Shown here piece after piece: positions 46,394 to 54,939 of a DNA stretch of 64,000 nucleotides. This DNA is from Phycisphaerales bacterium. Lineage in GTDB: Bacteria; Planctomycetota; Phycisphaerae; Phycisphaerales; SM1A02. The stretch spans positions 1-64,000 of the forward strand of contig SIAA01000006.1 of the NCBI GenBank assembly GCA_009692045.1, given 5' to 3'. The notes beneath the pieces are model-generated. The model was given only the letters and a program-made list of their open reading frames with translations. It was not told where the DNA came from and did not search any database. The translations under genes were made by a program, and so were the position numbers. Within the stretch, counting starts at the first letter, position 1. Every line of letters begins with the position of its first letter.

Positions 46394-47308
46394 ATGCGGG
46401 CACTCAATGGGAAAACCCAGCTACTACCAAGGCAGGCCAAACTTGCCCTTCTCGGGCTCGCCATCTCGTTGCCCTTTCACTTTCTACTGGTGGTAATTCT
46501 GGCAACGGTACGCGTGCCTCTGCCTACAGCTGTCGGCGCTGGAGAGCTGTTGGAGATTCAACTCACGCCGCTGGAGCGGATGACGCCCAGGGCATCTCCA
46601 GATCTGGCACAAGACCCGATCAGCACCACGCCGTCGATTGAAGCAGCCTCAACTACTGAAGCGACGGCGCGCTCACTGCCAGTTGTCACCGAGGTCACTT
46701 CGCAGAGTGTGCTGGGAAGTGGGTTGGCAAGGCCCGGCGACATCGAGGGCAACCGAGCGGGCTCGGGTGCATCCAGACCTGGCGCCAGAGCCGATTTCTT
46801 CGGAGTCGTGGGCACGGGCAAGCGAATCGCATATCTAATGGACAAATCGGGGTCGATGCGTGACGGTGGACGGATGGAGGCGGCGCGCAAGGAGCTAATC
46901 CGTTCCATAGAGGAACTACCGGATTTCGCCGAGGTATGTGTGGTGTTCTTTGATGACGAGAAGTCAGTGTGGCCAGCGCATCCCTGCTTCGTGCGCATGT
47001 CGCACCGCAACCGAGAAGCTCTGCTCGAGTGGATCTCCCAAGTGAGCCCCAGCGGGGGAACCAATCCGCTGCCCGCCTATATTCATGTAATGCGGTGTGA
47101 GCAGACGCCGGATCTGGTCTACCTCTTGAGTGATGGGGAAATCCCCCTTGAGTCGCTGCTGGGGATTGTGGCGGAGCACGGCACTAGCAAGGGCGCTGCG
47201 GTCAACACCTTTGCCTTTGGAGGTCAGGCCGAGGCAGAGACTCTGCGGCGATTGGCTGCGGAGTGCGGTGGATCGTTCAACGCGGTGTCGGGGGGAGCAG
47301 GTCGATGA
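46394..47308 (+). CDS. TonB-like anchored VWA-domain protein
   Basis: 304 residues. There is a short basic cytoplasmic start, then one transmembrane helix (about 17-39, LALLGLAISLPFHFLLVVIL) containing Ser25-x3-His29-x6-Leu36. That is the spacing of the Ser/His/Leu signature in the TonB and TolA anchors that contact ExbB-ExbD. A Pro/Thr-rich periplasmic linker (about 50-125) follows. A von Willebrand A domain with MIDAS motif DKSGSMRDGG comes next (about 140-300), with further MIDAS-type Thr/Asp in SGGTNPLP and LLSDGEIP. It is the first gene of an eight-gene operon with ExbB and two ExbD proteins, and the next gene starts inside its stop (ATGA). Function inferred: a proton-driven energy transducer with a metal-dependent adhesion domain. 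Confidence 0.75.
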   Translation: MRALNGKTQLLPRQAKLALLGLAISLPFHFLLVVILATVRVPLPTAVGAGELLEIQLTPLERMTPRASPDLAQDPISTTPSIEAASTTEATARSLPVVTEVTSQSVLGSGLARPGDIEGNRAGSGASRPGARADFFGVVGTGKRIAYLMDKSGSMRDGGRMEAARKELIRSIEELPDFAEVCVVFFDDEKSVWPAHPCFVRMSHRNREALLEWISQVSPSGGTNPLPAYIHVMRCEQTPDLVYLLSDGEIPLESLLGIVAEHGTSKGAAVNTFAFGGQAEAETLRRLAAECGGSFNAVSGGAGR

Positions 47309-48513
47309 TGACAGTCACTTCAACCGGAGTGAGTAGGGCCGCATCCATCGTCACGAGAGCAAGTGTGGTGCTCGTCCTCATGACCGCCGTGGTGCATGCA
47401 GCAAAGGCTCAAAGCGAGTCCTCTAGGAATGCAGTGTCAGTTCGAGTGGAGCGCCGCGGTGCGAAGGATGCCATCTCCGGGTTGCTGCGCGGAGCGAGTT
47501 CCGAAGGATTGGTGATCGACACATCACCAACTCTGGTGACGGTGCCGTGGATTGATATTGCCAGAGTCGAAGGGGATACAGATCCGGCCTGGAGCAGATG
47601 TCTGGACTCTGCTCGCAATCTGTGGCGGGGTGTGTACCGCTTGCAGCGAAGTGACATGCGTCTGGCCTGGGAGGCATTCGCCGCCGCGGCTAGCGGAGGT
47701 TGCACAGGCGAGGTGCAGAGAGCCGCTTGCGAGGGAATGGTTGTGAGCATGAGTCAAGACTCACAGGAGAATCGAACGCGGATAGCCAGTTTGATCGCGG
47801 CAAAGTTGGACCGGGATGGTGTTCGCGAGGCAGGGTCTCCCTTGGTGCGGGCGGCGTTTCCTTTGGATGGCGTCCCTGCGCCAGGATTTGCGCCAGCATG
47901 GGGAGACCTCGAGTCTGCCCAGGAGTTCATGGCGCTGTCAGGTACTGCGCTCGGCATCGATGCCGTTGATGTCAGTGATCCTGTGATGGCGGCGTTCATA
48001 GCGCTCGCTCGGCAGGAGTCAGGTGGCGAGTCAGTTATGCCGGAAAGGAAGTTGCTGGGAAAACCGCTTCCCGAGTGGTTCGCGCCGCTACTGGACGCCT
48101 GGCACGATGCGTGCAGTGTCGTCCCAGCGCGACGGATGGCCGGCCGCACGGCTCTTGCGCTACAACGCGGCGTGGTTGATGAGGCTTGGCGGCCTTGGAT
48201 TACCTACGCACGCGGGCGCAGTCTCGCGATGGACGCCCGAGAGTCCAGCGCAACCCGAGAGTCGAGCACCGCCCGTGATTCGGTGCTCGCCAGGGATGCG
48301 CTCGCTCGAACCGGTGTTGCGCTGGCTGATGATGCAGCACTCGAGTTGATCACAGCGGCTGCGGAGGCGGGGTTGGGCACCTCGCTCGGTCGCGCAGCAC
48401 TCTCTCAGGCTGCAAGGTGTCTGCGAACTGCGGATGATGAGGCGTCAGCATTACTGATCGAAAGAGACTTGGCCGCCGCCCGCGGCAGAAGCGAAGGAGC
48501 TCCCAGTCCATGA
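47305..48513 (+). CDS. exported protein of unknown function in the ExbBD operon
   Basis: 402 residues from ATG 47305 (a second ATG follows at once). Signal peptide about 1-36, core ASVVLVLMTAVVHAAKA. An SH3-like beta segment may follow (VRVERRGAKDAISGLLRGAS, VIDTSPTLVTVPWIDIARVE), then a helical repeat-like body without a named family. It overlaps the VWA gene and exbB by 4 bp each, so it is likely made in fixed ratio with them and works in the periplasm. Confidence 0.65.
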   Translation: MMTVTSTGVSRAASIVTRASVVLVLMTAVVHAAKAQSESSRNAVSVRVERRGAKDAISGLLRGASSEGLVIDTSPTLVTVPWIDIARVEGDTDPAWSRCLDSARNLWRGVYRLQRSDMRLAWEAFAAAASGGCTGEVQRAACEGMVVSMSQDSQENRTRIASLIAAKLDRDGVREAGSPLVRAAFPLDGVPAPGFAPAWGDLESAQEFMALSGTALGIDAVDVSDPVMAAFIALARQESGGESVMPERKLLGKPLPEWFAPLLDAWHDACSVVPARRMAGRTALALQRGVVDEAWRPWITYARGRSLAMDARESSATRESSTARDSVLARDALARTGVALADDAALELITAAAEAGLGTSLGRAALSQAARCLRTADDEASALLIERDLAAARGRSEGAPSP

Positions 48514-49193
48514 TGGTTTTGCTAGCACAATCCGCCGAGCAGACAGCAACGCTGCTCAAGTTCATTCACGGCGGCGGCGTAATCGGATATGTAATCATCG
48601 CCCTAAGCGTCGCTGGACTCGCCTTCGCCATAGCGCTGGCTGCCCAGGTACGCCGGTCGCGTCTGGCGCCATCGGAGCGCATTCGCGAGTTGCAGCGGCT
48701 CGTCATGGAGGGGGACTTGGCGGCCGCCCTCAAGTACTGCAAATCAGAGGTCAACGATTGCATGGCGCTGCGCATCGCCGTCGGGGGAATCGACCGGAGG
48801 CTTCGCGGACCTCTGGGTGCTTATGAGGCGCGGGGTGCCATGGAGGATGCGGGAGAGGCAGAAACCGCCCGCCTGTACCGCGCGATTGAACCACTGGCGG
48901 TAATCGCAAACGTTGCACCTCTCCTAGGACTGCTGGGAACGGTACAGGGGATGATCGGGGCATTTGATACCGTGGCCCAGAGCGCTCTGCGCGATGCTTC
49001 CTATCACGAGCAGCTGGCGCACAACATTCACATCGCCCTCATCACTACATTTCAGGGGCTGGTAGTGGCGATCCCCTGCGTCGTGGTGCACTCCTACTTT
49101 CGCAGTCGCATCGATGCGACCGCCGGAGAGATCGGCCGCGAGTTGGAGCCGATCGCCCAATCATTGGAATCGTCAGCTGGTCGTGTCTCATGA
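48510..49193 (+). CDS. MotA/TolQ/ExbB-family proton channel protein
   Basis: 227 residues, three transmembrane helices: about 24-46 (GYVIIALSVAGLAFAIALAA), about 128-150 (VIANVAPLLGLLGTVQGMIG) and about 172-195 (IALITTFQGLVVAIPCVVVH). The VAPLLGLLGTVQGMI and GLVVAIP motifs are those of ExbB/TolQ. An N-terminal Gln/Ala-rich periplasmic start precedes TM1. The Glu normally found just before A-L in TM3 of ExbB and TolQ (G-I-A-E-A-L) is replaced: the segment here reads NIHIALITT. It forms the channel with the ExbD-like proteins encoded directly downstream. Confidence 0.9.
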   Translation: MMVLLAQSAEQTATLLKFIHGGGVIGYVIIALSVAGLAFAIALAAQVRRSRLAPSERIRELQRLVMEGDLAAALKYCKSEVNDCMALRIAVGGIDRRLRGPLGAYEARGAMEDAGEAETARLYRAIEPLAVIANVAPLLGLLGTVQGMIGAFDTVAQSALRDASYHEQLAHNIHIALITTFQGLVVAIPCVVVHSYFRSRIDATAGEIGRELEPIAQSLESSAGRVS

Positions 49194-49615
49194 TCGTGGG
49201 TCGGCGAGTGAAGGGCGAGTCGATTGGCCCGGACTTCACGCCCATGATCGATGTTGTGTTTTTACTGTTGATCTTCTTCATCGTTACCGCGCAAATGGCC
49301 AAACAGTCACGCAGCGATGTGCAGCTTCCATCGGAGGCGGGAGACAAGCACAAGGATGCGCGCGCCGCTGGCCTCATTGTGAATATTCTGGCTGATGGAA
49401 CCATTCAGGTCGCTGATCGAGTGGTCGATCTGCCAGCCCTGCGGGTAATGGCGCAGGAGGCGGCCTCGCGGGATGCCACCAGCTCTCCCATCATTCGCGC
49501 CGACTTCGCCGCTCCAACTTCGCTTCTCAATGGGGCAGTGGAAACAATGCGCAGCGCCGGATTCACCTCCTTCAAACTCTCCACCAACCCCTCGGGCTCG
49601 CGAGGCGGATCGTGA
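49190..49615 (+). CDS. ExbD/TolR-family protein 1
   Basis: 141 residues, one transmembrane helix (about 19-38). The proton-carrying Asp is present in FTPMIDVVFLLLIFFIVTAQ. The periplasmic domain has the ExbD pattern IVNILADGTIQVADRVV ... IIRADFAAP. The start overlaps the exbB stop by 4 bp (ATGA). Confidence 0.93.
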   Translation: MIVGRRVKGESIGPDFTPMIDVVFLLLIFFIVTAQMAKQSRSDVQLPSEAGDKHKDARAAGLIVNILADGTIQVADRVVDLPALRVMAQEAASRDATSSPIIRADFAAPTSLLNGAVETMRSAGFTSFKLSTNPSGSRGGS

Positions 49616-50019
49616 AGATCGGGCACAAGTCGCGATTGACTCGCCGGCGACCCTCGCTGGGCATGACGAGCATGATCGACGCGGTGTTTCTGCTCCTCAG
49701 CTACTTCTTATTCACTACCGGAGCCGCGCTTCCCGAAGAGCAACTAAGCGCTGTGGCGCGGACGAATCGGCCGGCCGCGAGTGCGCTCTCTCCCCAAGTA
49801 ATTGATGTGGTGGAGGAGGCCGGTGAGCCCGTGTTCCTTCTGGGCGCGCGTCGAATAAATGGGCGCGAGCAACTCACCGAGCTGTTGCAGCAACTGCCCA
49901 AGAGTGGAGGCGTGGTAGTGCGTGTTCACAGTGGCCCGGCGGTATCGGCGGCGGCAGCTGCCCTTCAGGCTGCACACGACGCGGGGTTCTCTGAGGTGTC
50001 ATATGTTCCGGCACCCTAA
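49612..50019 (+). CDS. ExbD/TolR-family protein 2
   Basis: 135 residues, one transmembrane helix with the conserved Asp in TSMIDAVFLLLSYFLFTTGA. The periplasmic domain is shorter and more divergent than that of its neighbour (VVVRVHSGPAVSAAAAAL). The GTG start overlaps the first exbD by 4 bp. Two different ExbD proteins next to one ExbB suggest a heteromeric channel. Confidence 0.85.
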   Translation: MKIGHKSRLTRRRPSLGMTSMIDAVFLLLSYFLFTTGAALPEEQLSAVARTNRPAASALSPQVIDVVEEAGEPVFLLGARRINGREQLTELLQQLPKSGGVVVRVHSGPAVSAAAAALQAAHDAGFSEVSYVPAP

Positions 50020-52534
50020 CCGGCTGGCAAGCCTGTGCCGCGCCTGGCTGGCAGCGTTCGCTGTGAGTGGTGGTGTCGCGGTTGCTGACGACTCCACAAG
50101 CGCTGACGGCACGGAGGCGTACCTGCGAGAGACGGGTCTGAATCGGCTGCATATCCACTATCTAGAACGAGAGATCAGTTCCAAACTTCTGGTGCAGGAG
50201 AAGCGGGCTGTGGCTCAGAGACTTGCGGCCGTTCTTCTGGAGATGGCAGCCGAGTCGACCGACCCGGAGGATCTGCACGCGCTTCGTAGCAGAGTCGAGA
50301 AGTTGGCCCGGGAGCATGGATTCGATGCCGTGTTGTCCGAGGAAATGTTGCTGCGAACCGTCGCTGCTGAGTTCACAGTCCTCAAGGAGATGTTCGGTCA
50401 GTCAATGCGGAGGGAATCGGCGGCCCAAGCCAAACAGGAGTTGTTGCAGCAGTTCGAAGAACTTTCGGCAGGGCTGCGCTTGCTGATTGCGTCCATTGAG
50501 TCGGGAGAGAGGGATGCCCGCAAGGAGGTTGGGTCGTCCGCCGCCCAGTCCCCCGGTGCTCGGCACGCCGCCGATCGGCGCTCCGAGCGATTGCTGGAGG
50601 CTCAATCAATGATGGGGTGGGCACTCGTGGCTCGCGCCTGGCTGACCCGTGACTCGCCGGTCACCGGTGAGTCACCCCATGTGCTCGCTCGGCAGGCGAT
50701 GCCCTTTCTCGGCGAAGTGCTGGGAGTAGACGAGGGTTGCGACGATGCATCCGAGGCATCGGTGGACTTGCGCAAGTACCTGCAATACTCCGATGCAATG
50801 CTGGCAGTCGCGCTGGGAAAGTCCCTGGCTCCTGGTTGGCAGGACGCTGAGCCTTGGTTCGATCTCCTCTCTAGTGATGGCAGTCATCCATCGGTGCGTG
50901 AGTCGATTGATGTGTGGCGCATGGCGGCGATGCTGGGATCGGGTGCCGTGGCTGCGGCCGAGCGCTTCATCTCTCGCGTGCACGAGGGCGGCGCTGACAA
51001 TGGAGATGCACTCGCCGTGGCGTTGCTGCCTAGAAGCCTCGGCCAGTCGAGTGCAGAAACTAGTGTCGCTGCTCTGGCGACAAGCATGTTGGCGGCGAAC
51101 TCTCAGTGGAGCCTGATGGCAAAGACGCGATCACCCGCAGTGAAAATCCAAGACCAGTTCGCGGACGCGCTTCTCGAGGTGGCGCATGCCTGGAGGACAT
51201 CGCGCAGTGCTACCGCTGACACGGCTGGTGCTACGCGCCGCGAGGTCGTGCTGGCGGTGCAGCGAGCATCATTCGACCACGCGTCTACCCACACCGAGTT
51301 GCGAGATCAAGCGCGAGCTGCAGCCGAGGAACTTGCGGGATGGTGTCTTTGGGAGTTGGGGGAGCCCGCGCGGGCCGCCAACTGTTTTGCCTTCGCCAAG
51401 GACCATGGAAGTACTGAAGTCGCCTCGCGGTCAGCGGCAATGGAGATCGAATGTTTGGCGAAGCAGGGGGCTCCGGCATCAGTCCTGCAAACTCTTCGCT
51501 TGCGGCTCATTGATGCCGATGGCTCGTCTGAATCCAAGGTGAAGGCGCTGCTCGACTTCGCCTCACAGGATGGCAGTGCTCCCGAGCGAGTGATTGCGGC
51601 GTTGCTGGCACTCGAGCCCTCGCATCCGCAGAGGGATGCTGCACTGCGGGCCGCATCCCGAGTCATCTATCAGCAGTTCCGGGAGTCAACGGGAGAGGAG
51701 AGGTCCGCGCAGGCAGCACGACTCCTGCGATTGGCGGCGCCCGCGCCATCGCGGTGGCCTGCGGGCAGTATCGATGAGGTAGTGCGCCGCCAGCTCGACG
51801 CGGCGCTGGATGATGCAGTGATCGACCTGCCCGCCGCCCACGAGCTTCTGGATGAAGTTGCGTTTCGAGGCCCAATCACCGATGACGCGGTGAGCGACGA
51901 AATGTCCTTTAGACGCGAACAACTCGCCCTTGCCGAAAGTCGGTGGGACGAGGCGGTGGCGCAGCGCGAGTTGATCGGATCAAAGAGCGAGTACCGGTCA
52001 GCCGCTGATGCGCTGCTGCGCCGAGCGGTGATGGGGGCGATTCGTGCAGGTGAGTCGGGCGAGCTACCGGCAACTGCTCTCAAGGCAGTCGCGCACATGG
52101 TGAAGCGTGACGCCGAGGTCGAGAGTGGTACCGAACGGCTGGCAACAGCACGCACACTTCTCGAGCTCGCCTCTGCAGGGCAGGTTGACTGCGCGACAGT
52201 CGCAATGACGCTGGTGGGTAAGAGTGTGGTTGACAGTCCCACTGCAACCTACGAAGAGTTGCGATTGCTGGCGGACGCGGCGCTCGCAGGTCATGATGAG
52301 GAAGCCTCACGAGCATCGCTATCCCGTCTGGTCAATGCGCTTGATCCGGCATCCGCTGAGGGAGCCCGCGCACGCTTGGAGTTGTGCGAGGTATTGCTCC
52401 GGCTCGAACCCGCCGTAGCGGGCGACTTGCTCCGGCAGCAGCGGGTGCTAGTGCCTGGTTACGGCCCTGATCCATGGGGGCCGCGCCTGCAGGAACTCGC
52501 AGCACGGGTTCTGCAGTCGGAGGGCAACAGGTGA
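50003..52534 (+). CDS. large exported helical protein of unknown function
   Basis: 843 residues from ATG 50003, overlapping the second exbD by 17 bp. A signal peptide is likely (about 1-30, WLAAFAVSGGVAVAD). The rest is almost entirely helical, Ala/Glu/Arg-rich, with TPR- or HEAT-like periodicity by eye, and no catalytic motif. It might be a periplasmic scaffold for the ExbBD/VWA machine. A frame open to 49922 is not used because it would add a non-signal extension. Confidence 0.6.
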   Translation: MFRHPNRLASLCRAWLAAFAVSGGVAVADDSTSADGTEAYLRETGLNRLHIHYLEREISSKLLVQEKRAVAQRLAAVLLEMAAESTDPEDLHALRSRVEKLAREHGFDAVLSEEMLLRTVAAEFTVLKEMFGQSMRRESAAQAKQELLQQFEELSAGLRLLIASIESGERDARKEVGSSAAQSPGARHAADRRSERLLEAQSMMGWALVARAWLTRDSPVTGESPHVLARQAMPFLGEVLGVDEGCDDASEASVDLRKYLQYSDAMLAVALGKSLAPGWQDAEPWFDLLSSDGSHPSVRESIDVWRMAAMLGSGAVAAAERFISRVHEGGADNGDALAVALLPRSLGQSSAETSVAALATSMLAANSQWSLMAKTRSPAVKIQDQFADALLEVAHAWRTSRSATADTAGATRREVVLAVQRASFDHASTHTELRDQARAAAEELAGWCLWELGEPARAANCFAFAKDHGSTEVASRSAAMEIECLAKQGAPASVLQTLRLRLIDADGSSESKVKALLDFASQDGSAPERVIAALLALEPSHPQRDAALRAASRVIYQQFRESTGEERSAQAARLLRLAAPAPSRWPAGSIDEVVRRQLDAALDDAVIDLPAAHELLDEVAFRGPITDDAVSDEMSFRREQLALAESRWDEAVAQRELIGSKSEYRSAADALLRRAVMGAIRAGESGELPATALKAVAHMVKRDAEVESGTERLATARTLLELASAGQVDCATVAMTLVGKSVVDSPTATYEELRLLADAALAGHDEEASRASLSRLVNALDPASAEGARARLELCEVLLRLEPAVAGDLLRQQRVLVPGYGPDPWGPRLQELAARVLQSEGNR

Positions 52535-54939
52535 GCGATCTCCTCCGGCAGCTGTTTGGTGTTTCCGCTGAGAACTCAGACCGTCAGGTCTTGGGACTCG
52601 AAGGGCCGGCATCGAAAGAGAGCATCATCAGACAGGGGCGAGCGAGGTTGCAGGCACTTCAGCCTCACGAGCAGTCCGACTCGAGCGCGTACGGAATTGC
52701 TGAGGCGCGAGTTCGTCTGGCTGTCGGTCGATTGGTGCGTGAGTCCGCGGGTGAGTCGCCTCCGGCTGCAGCAGAGGTTCCCACCGATCCGCACACGCTT
52801 GCGGCGCTCGCGGCGCTTGCGAGACGGGGAAGTCGTACCGCGCGTGTGTTGCTCGTCGCCGCCCACTCCTGTGAGATCAGGGGCGACCTCGGTCCCGCTG
52901 GCCCCGCAGCAGTGGGAGCCAAAGTCAGCGAGCCGATGAAGATAAGAGAGTCGTTCAAAGCGAGCAAGAGAGCAGTGCAAGAGGAGCTCGCGCCTGCAGG
53001 CCCAGACTCGATGGCATCCTCCTCCAGTGCCCTCATAGTGGTGGCAGGATCAGCATTGGCATCATTGGCCATCGCCGCTCTCGTTCTTTGGATGGGAAAT
53101 CAAGATGGTCAGGTTGCTGGGGCTACTCGGAGTGTCGCCCCGGTAGAGCAGACAGCGATGCCAGTTGCAGCACCAGCACCTGCGCCCGAGTCGGCTACGA
53201 GTGCAGTGGCGGTGAGACCTGCTGTCGCAACACCTGGGCGCAGTGGAGGGGTCGCCAATCCACTCGGTGCCAGCACGGCAACAGTCCTTGACACTCGTCA
53301 GGAGTCCACGAGTGAGCTGCTAGCGCTGCTCGAATCTTGGAAGGCTCGCGTGGATTCCACTATCGCGGTGCTGGATGGTGCCAATAGCTCTGAGGCGAAG
53401 TGCAAACTAGTGGAGCGACTGGACGCTCTCGATGGTGTAGCGCGATTGATAGATGCGAAACGCCTGCAGGAGTCGGCACTCCTCTTGGAGGTGATCCCTC
53501 TGCAACCGGTTCTCCCAGAGGAGAGCATCATGGCTACCCAGGAGTGGGGACTGTCGGCATCTCTTGCTAGTGCCGGTTCAGGGGGAGAGTTGCGGGTCTC
53601 CATACTTCGCAGATTCGGCCAGTCTGCCTCGGCTGATCGGCTGACGGCAGCCGATGCGCAGGGTCTCGCGGATGAAGCGCTATCCGGCCCCTCGCGCGCC
53701 AGTAGAGAAGTTGCGCAGAGCTTGCTGCTCAGCCGCTACGTGAACTCGTCCGCTGCGGCTGTCGGAATGCTCAACTCCCTCGCCAGCGCCAGCGCGCTCG
53801 CTGAGGTCCGCGGATTCATCGAGGCATTTGCCAAGAAAGACATAGTGGGTTCGGGGGCAACTGCGAGGTTGGCGATGCGGCAGGGGTTGATGTCCCGGGC
53901 ACTCGAAACAGGATTCAGCGCAGTTGCGTCGATTGATGAGACTCCTCGGGCGATGCATTCGCCGGCGGAAACATTCCCTGCCGAGGGAGCAATCGGGCCG
54001 CTCCAGGTATTCGTTGCCTCAAACAGCGGCGCACTTCGGCAGCGATCTGCTCAGCTATCTGCGGAGCGCCCCGCACTGGCACCTGCTCTCAAGCAGATTG
54101 TCGAATCAACCGAAAGGAATCGCGCTCGAAGTGCCAGTGTGCTCGATCAGATGCTTATCAATGGGGTAGCCGCCCTCCGCATGAGAGCACTCGCATCAGG
54201 CGTTCAGCTTGCCAGTAGCCCGCGCGCGATGGGCGCAGATGAGGCTGCTGGTGTTTCGTCGACGCCATCGGATCCCGCTGACCAACTTCCAGAGTGGGCA
54301 GTGACTCGACTGGAACTGCTCGATCCGAGTAGACCGCTCGACTATCTGGAGCTGGGTGAAGAGCTGGCAGACGGCACCAGGAGAGGGAGTACAGCTTGGA
54401 TCACCGCACGAACGCTCTTTGCGCTCACGGGCGCCATTGACTCATCCAGGTACGCCCGGAGTGCGCTTCTTGCCATCGCCTCTCTGGAAGAAACCGGTTT
54501 GAATGGCCTGAGCGCGAGACTCGTGGCTCTGCGAGCATCCCGCGCGTGGGCCTCTCCGCTTGCGGTCCGTGGGTCGGCGACCGCCGAGCAGAGACTCTTG
54601 TTCGCTGAGGCGATGGCGGACCTGCGAATGGGCGCGGTCAAGCGGGGCAACAATAAGCTGGAGAAGCCAGAGATCGCAGCGCTTAGAGAATTTTATACAG
54701 GGAATCAGAGCCTCACAGAACTTGATCTGATGTCATCTCTGCTGATGGAGCGCGCGGCCCTCCGTGATGATGGGCAACTCACCTGGGCAGAGGATCTGGC
54801 TATTCGAACCGCCACTCCGCTTCCGGAGGTTGATCCGCGCGACCCGTGGAACGCCCTAGGTGAGGATGTGAACAAACAGTACTGGCGAGGCGGCAGTTTC
54901 GTGGGATTGGTTGCAGGGAACCCACCTCTTGGTAGATAG
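52531..54939 (+). CDS. single-pass membrane protein of unknown function in the ExbBD operon
   Basis: 802 residues from GTG 52531 (GTGA overlap with the gene before). The N-terminal 80 residues (VLGLEGPASKESIIRQGRAR) form a small helical module loosely like the J-like modules of planctomycete membrane proteins, but no HPD tripeptide is present. A transmembrane helix lies at about 165-187 (ALIVVAGSALASLAIAALVL). A Pro/Ala-rich linker leads to a long helical periplasmic region. It could link cytoplasmic and periplasmic parts of the system. Confidence 0.6.
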   Translation: MSDLLRQLFGVSAENSDRQVLGLEGPASKESIIRQGRARLQALQPHEQSDSSAYGIAEARVRLAVGRLVRESAGESPPAAAEVPTDPHTLAALAALARRGSRTARVLLVAAHSCEIRGDLGPAGPAAVGAKVSEPMKIRESFKASKRAVQEELAPAGPDSMASSSSALIVVAGSALASLAIAALVLWMGNQDGQVAGATRSVAPVEQTAMPVAAPAPAPESATSAVAVRPAVATPGRSGGVANPLGASTATVLDTRQESTSELLALLESWKARVDSTIAVLDGANSSEAKCKLVERLDALDGVARLIDAKRLQESALLLEVIPLQPVLPEESIMATQEWGLSASLASAGSGGELRVSILRRFGQSASADRLTAADAQGLADEALSGPSRASREVAQSLLLSRYVNSSAAAVGMLNSLASASALAEVRGFIEAFAKKDIVGSGATARLAMRQGLMSRALETGFSAVASIDETPRAMHSPAETFPAEGAIGPLQVFVASNSGALRQRSAQLSAERPALAPALKQIVESTERNRARSASVLDQMLINGVAALRMRALASGVQLASSPRAMGADEAAGVSSTPSDPADQLPEWAVTRLELLDPSRPLDYLELGEELADGTRRGSTAWITARTLFALTGAIDSSRYARSALLAIASLEETGLNGLSARLVALRASRAWASPLAVRGSATAEQRLLFAEAMADLRMGAVKRGNNKLEKPEIAALREFYTGNQSLTELDLMSSLLMERAALRDDGQLTWAEDLAIRTATPLPEVDPRDPWNALGEDVNKQYWRGGSFVGLVAGNPPLGR

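Follow-up and report, generated by a model that had tools for sequence, protein, structure and literature searches.

A putative TonB/TolA-like transducer ending in a VWA domain, encoded with an ExbB-ExbD-ExbD motor in a Phycisphaerales genome

The window, i.e. the whole analysed stretch of 64,000 nucleotides from contig SIAA01000006.1 of a Phycisphaerales bacterium (assembly GCA_009692045.1), contains seven overlapping genes on the plus strand, namely VWA, which comes first, P2, ExbB, ExbD1, ExbD2, P6 and P7. The order VWA-P2-ExbB-ExbD-ExbD-P6 is common to most of the relatives having enough flanking sequence. The genes, together with the features of the first gene product, are as follows:

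46394..47308, plus strand: gene for the putative VWA-tipped transducer, 304 aa, matching Pfam VWA_3 (PF13768, E 1.5e-11)
46445..46507, plus strand: single transmembrane helix, aa 18-38, putative motor-docking anchor (hydropathy; invariant Ser and His within)
46466..46468, plus strand: Ser25, at the position of Ser16 in E. coli TonB, invariant in 41/41 homologues
46478..46480, plus strand: His29, at the position of His20 in E. coli TonB, invariant in 41/41 homologues
46499..46501, plus strand: Leu36 (H+7), third position of the SHLS motif, variable (27 Leu, 9 Ala, 4 Phe and 1 Arg among 41)
46514..46795, plus strand: periplasmic linker, aa 41-134 (low conservation, composition)
46550..46570, plus strand: D-box-like strand LEIQLTP, aa 53-59, which may bind ExbD (family strand, spacing from His)
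46823..47275, plus strand: VWA domain with intact MIDAS (DKSGSM, 46841-46858) (Pfam, PDB profile, conservation)
47305..48513, plus strand: P2, secreted protein with an Sm/SH3-like barrel and TPR-like helices (operon homologues, structure model)
48510..49193, plus strand: ExbB/TolQ homologue (PF01618, E 3.8e-25)
49190..49615, plus strand: ExbD/TolR homologue 1 (PF02472, E 2.5e-21)
49612..50019, plus strand: ExbD/TolR homologue 2, of a distinct subfamily (PF02472, E 2.9e-8)
50003..52534, plus strand: P6, secreted all-helical TPR-type solenoid of about 843 aa (model pLDDT 87.3; split loci)
52531..54939, plus strand: P7, fusion of two proteins (profile matches in separate genes of relatives)

The translation of the ORF at 46394-47308 (plus strand) begins with MRALNGKTQLLPRQAKLALLGLAISLPFHFLLVVILATVRVPLPTAVGAGELLEIQLTPLERM and comprises a 17-residue tail bearing Arg and Lys, the helix at aa 18-38 with a Kyte-Doolittle value of 2.48 over 19 aa, a linker of about 95 residues and the VWA domain. 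The initial annotation had placed at 46436-46520, which corresponds to aa 15-42, an anchor with Ser25, His29 and Leu36 spaced as are Ser16, His20 and Leu27 of E. coli TonB, and both the position and the spacing proved right for this one helix; at the fourth position of SHLS there is R40 instead of Ser. A VWA tip with an intact MIDAS in place of a TonB_C domain was likewise confirmed, as the Pfam VWA_3 match spans aa 144-294, a profile search also matches the domain to VWA chains in the PDB, and the MIDAS residues (D150-x-S152-x-S154, T223 and D247) are complete and invariant in the homologues.

Conservation was assessed in 41 Phycisphaerales homologues with 21-41% identity to the window protein, among which 13 columns are invariant, including S25, H29 and the five MIDAS residues. 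Alignment of the homologue N-termini, suggested in the initial annotation as a check, thus found both Ser and His unchanged throughout. The same annotation described the layout as exactly that of TonB; the order of helix, linker and head holds, but the wording is overstated because the linkers of the family are generally Gly/Ala/Glu-rich, Pro/Thr richness being peculiar to the window member (10 Pro and 10 Thr in 94 aa), and Leu at H+7 is a majority trait only. Among TonBs, too, conservation is lower at the Leu and at the final Ser of SHLS (PMC12215075).

The motif was then counted over about 140 surveyed loci with 100 distinct helix-bearing VWA genes that have ExbB/ExbD nearby. S-x3-H lies within the helix in 95 of these 100, or in 97 of 101 after the helices were re-read, the automatic procedure having picked the wrong transmembrane segment in L084 and L090, both of which carry S-x3-H; the Ser/His loss that had been looked for among same-operon homologues is therefore confined to a few genes, namely three with A-x3-H (L154 and the tandem pair of L079) and one with S-x3-N (L170). 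In the background of 510 other hydrophobic segments, S-x3-H occurs in three and in none of them mid-helix, and a chance match was rejected on the basis of these counts together with the invariance in all 41 homologues. A further phylum-wide sample of 20 loci, one of which (L239) comes from Phycisphaerales, has S-x3-H at 19 loci and T-x3-H at one.

A natural replacement of His by Asn at the position of TonB His20, with Ser kept, is seen in L170 (5413-6516) and L064 (3790-4866). E. coli TonB probably remains functional with Asn in place of His20. Tandem VWA genes upstream of ExbB/ExbD are found in other families of the order (L079, L082, L085 and L188).

In the window protein the lone N-terminal hydrophobic segment follows a short basic tail, as it would in a cleaved signal peptide containing Ser and His incidentally. 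Such a reading has next to no chance of being correct and was rejected, since in the homologues the helix usually starts 22-79 residues from the N-terminus after a cytoplasmic tail, Arg-rich in some of them and atypical of signal peptides, and since the segment contains an invariant polar Ser and an invariant His.

Three same-family VWA proteins (L069, L071 and L031) keep the membrane helix and lack both Ser and His, and no ExbB or ExbD was found beside their genes. One of them, L031 (8527-9618), is a VWA paralogue in the window's own genome (C24); its downstream context is incomplete, as the gene is followed by only about 2.3 kb of contig. In a clade of three loci (L049, L132 and L138) the VWA gene is followed directly by P6, and Ser and His are retained; in G025, the one split-locus genome checked, ExbB-ExbD-ExbD of the same subfamilies is located on another contig (L186), and G054 resembles this split arrangement (L077, L189). 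Since the split-locus clade keeps Ser and His and the unlinked relatives have lost both, the motif seems, in these small numbers, to track the possession of a motor rather than adjacency to it.

These loci bear on the proposal that the protein simply sits in the membrane as a VWA scaffold, or helps to assemble a TPR complex of P2, P6 and P7, and that Ser and His have to do with helix packing and not with ExbB. Clusters of VWA and TPR proteins are frequent, and VWA adjoins P6 even where ExbBD is elsewhere, which fits a scaffold; we nevertheless consider this very improbable, given that the same-family VWAs without adjacent ExbBD have lost Ser and His, that the Ser/His spacing equals that of TonB and TolA, and that the split-locus genome checked still has ExbB, ExbD and ExbD genes of the same subfamilies together in one operon. 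The reading of the helix as a TonB/TolA-type anchor is supported by the invariant Ser and His, the ExbB-ExbD-ExbD operon, the ExbD-box-like strand and the fact that unlinked relatives have lost the motif, and the VWA protein is in all probability a TonB/TolA-like transducer of force (or of signal) which ends in a VWA domain and is docked on the ExbB/ExbD of its own operon.

The motor subunits were compared with what we take to be the E. coli ExbB reference sequence, the numbering of which agrees with every residue named in PMC12215075. The equivalent of TM1 Ser34, the Ser touched by TonB Ser16/His20, is present in 99/99 ExbBs, as are those of Thr148 and Thr181, and the Pro190 equivalent in 98/99 (one gap), while the transmembrane Asp is found in 70/70 ExbD1 and 79/79 ExbD2 sequences. 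Trp38, which in E. coli contacts TonB Ser16/His20, corresponds to Leu, Val or Met in this family, a point against docking of the TonB kind. The conserved TM1 Ser is consistent with docking but was rejected as specific proof of it, because the TolQ-like motor subunit of C62 in the same genome carries the Ser too and has no S-x3-H partner in view. The gene for the latter (L095, 7130-7867) is TolQ/ExbB-like, no ExbD was found adjoining it, and its neighbours, judged by inspection only, are an ORF of FHA/phosphatase-like character and a protein that looks secreted.

By analogy with the E. coli TonB-ExbB and TolA-TolQ structures, the VWA helix would use Ser25 and His29 to dock on the ExbB pentamer, at its rim and beside the conserved TM1 Ser. 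The D-box of TonB, 45-ISVTMVT-51, binds ExbD and is located 25 residues past His20 (PMC12215075); LEIQLTP is located 24 residues past H29, and the family has a strand of the V-E-F-A type at 24-28 residues. This strand may be bound by a periplasmic ExbD dimer, probably an ExbD1/ExbD2 heterodimer, and proton flow through ExbB/ExbD would be transmitted along the flexible linker to the VWA head, the MIDAS of which may provide a metal-dependent grip on a periplasmic or outer-membrane partner.

The same docking could alternatively serve a gate or sensor, in which ligand binding at the VWA head switches the proton channel open or shut, the mechanical work is left to the peptidoglycan-binding ExbDs, and the VWA protein itself does not pull. 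The Ser/His network has been proposed to signal to ExbB TM3 Pro190 and thereby gate the channel (Ton/Tol literature, PMC12215075), this Pro is conserved in the ExbBs considered here, and the presence of two different ExbDs suggests specialised periplasmic work. Pure gating is still unlikely, as a D-box-like strand, a flexible linker and a folded distal head are the layout of a transducer, and gating and pulling are compatible with each other.

P2 is conserved between the VWA and ExbB genes in homologous operons, and its model (pLDDT 78.8) comprises a signal segment, a five-stranded Sm/SH3-like barrel and helical repeats; in a PDB fold search it gave no significant match, with only weak ones to TPR/BamD and Hfq-barrel structures. 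The P6 model shows a signal segment and an all-alpha solenoid with TPR/solenoid fold matches, and P6 is the gene remaining with VWA where ExbBD is elsewhere. From this and from synteny, the first candidates for a partner or adaptor of the VWA head are P6 and P2. P7 corresponds to two proteins, P7a (model residues 1 to about 530; an N-terminal domain, a transmembrane segment and a periplasmic part) and P7b (about 536-794; secreted, about 260 aa), which are encoded by separate adjacent genes in relatives, so that the fusion in the window ties both of them to the same machine. No Pfam match was obtained for P7 or for P7a and P7b of four relatives. In P7 (52531-54939) a short LLGL-type N-terminal domain stands ahead of the transmembrane segment.

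It had been suggested in the initial annotation that a VWA-tipped TonB analogue would be a new type of effector for ExbBD motors. This claim fails because vWA force transducers, a Tichowtungia-type family with an SHLS helix, a motor box and a vWA tip, have already been described by Williams-Jones et al. (Mol Biol Evol 2025; PMC12204202), planctomycetes included. According to that paper the family occurs in Planctomycetes as well as in other phyla, and its genes have tolQ, a TPR gene and two heterologous genes of the tolR type nearby; in AF3 models the helix docks at the rim of the motor by way of His, and no phenotype is given as known.

The assignment of the window locus to this class, predicted in 2025, is well supported. 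The window protein has the S-x3-H helix and the C-terminal vWA domain of the class and a candidate strand for the motor box, which in the class lies in a disordered linker of about 100 residues after the helix, and the operon likewise has adjacent tolQ-like, two tolR-like and TPR genes. It differs in that the fourth SHLS residue is missing, that VWA heads the operon whereas vWA is 'often downstream' in that account, and that two TPR-type proteins and the P7a/P7b pair are additional. A second family of the same paper (PMC12204202), the TPH-vWA motors, also pairs a vWA protein with a TolQ-like protein, but is described there as having neither ExbD nor SHLS, the Asp of the pore being borne by the vWA helix; unlike these, the window locus has two Asp-bearing ExbDs, and its vWA helix, ALLGLAISLPFHFLLVVILA, contains no Asp.

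The likeness to TonB lies in the S-x3-H-x6-L helix, the ExbB/ExbD partner and the nearly equal distance of the D-box-like strand from His (24 against 25 residues). The differences are the VWA head in place of TonB_C (PF03544 is unmatched in both the protein and the genome), the genome's lack of a TonB-dependent receptor match, a family linker that is not characteristically Pro-rich, and two ExbDs. With TolA of Tol-Pal the protein shares the helix with the S-x3-H of SHLS and, like a core envelope machine, near-universality in the order, but a VWA head stands in place of the TolA domain, there is no long helical domain II, and TolB_N is unmatched across the related genomes.

VWA homologues were found in 59 of 61 related genomes (E<=1e-5), and the named sources of homologues are metagenome-assembled genomes of Phycisphaerales/Planctomycetota, mostly aquatic judging by their titles. 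TonB_C scored above the cut-off in 25 of the 61 genomes and TolB_N in none. Searches of the window's genome for TonB_C, TonB-dependent receptor and TolB_N gave no match, and therefore no conventional transducer was found for its motors, although the genome is about 95% complete and a gene may have been missed; two OmpA-domain proteins are present. From this distribution a replacement of Tol-Pal in Phycisphaerales is possible. The fuller proposal, that VWA-P2-ExbB-ExbD-ExbD-P6-P7 forms a near-universal trans-envelope transducer of the order which does the Tol-Pal job by metal-dependent VWA gripping and not by beta-strand addition, is a tentative and rather doubtful one.

Relative to the published class, what is new here are the invariance counts, the finding that unlinked relatives have lost the motif, the split loci, the P6/P7 companions and the near-universality of the machine in an order without detectable TolB. 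The counts and the natural comparison are an independent test of a third class of periplasmic force transducer that had been predicted. They also direct attention to an envelope machine present almost throughout an order in which TolB went undetected, and the fold-typed P2 and P6 and the fused P7 make the function of the machine testable. A second VWA-ExbB-ExbD-ExbD cluster is present in the same genome (L096, C41, 6987-9660, minus strand), and the helix of its VWA protein, TSLLIHCAVLAALL, is S-x3-H-x6-L as well.
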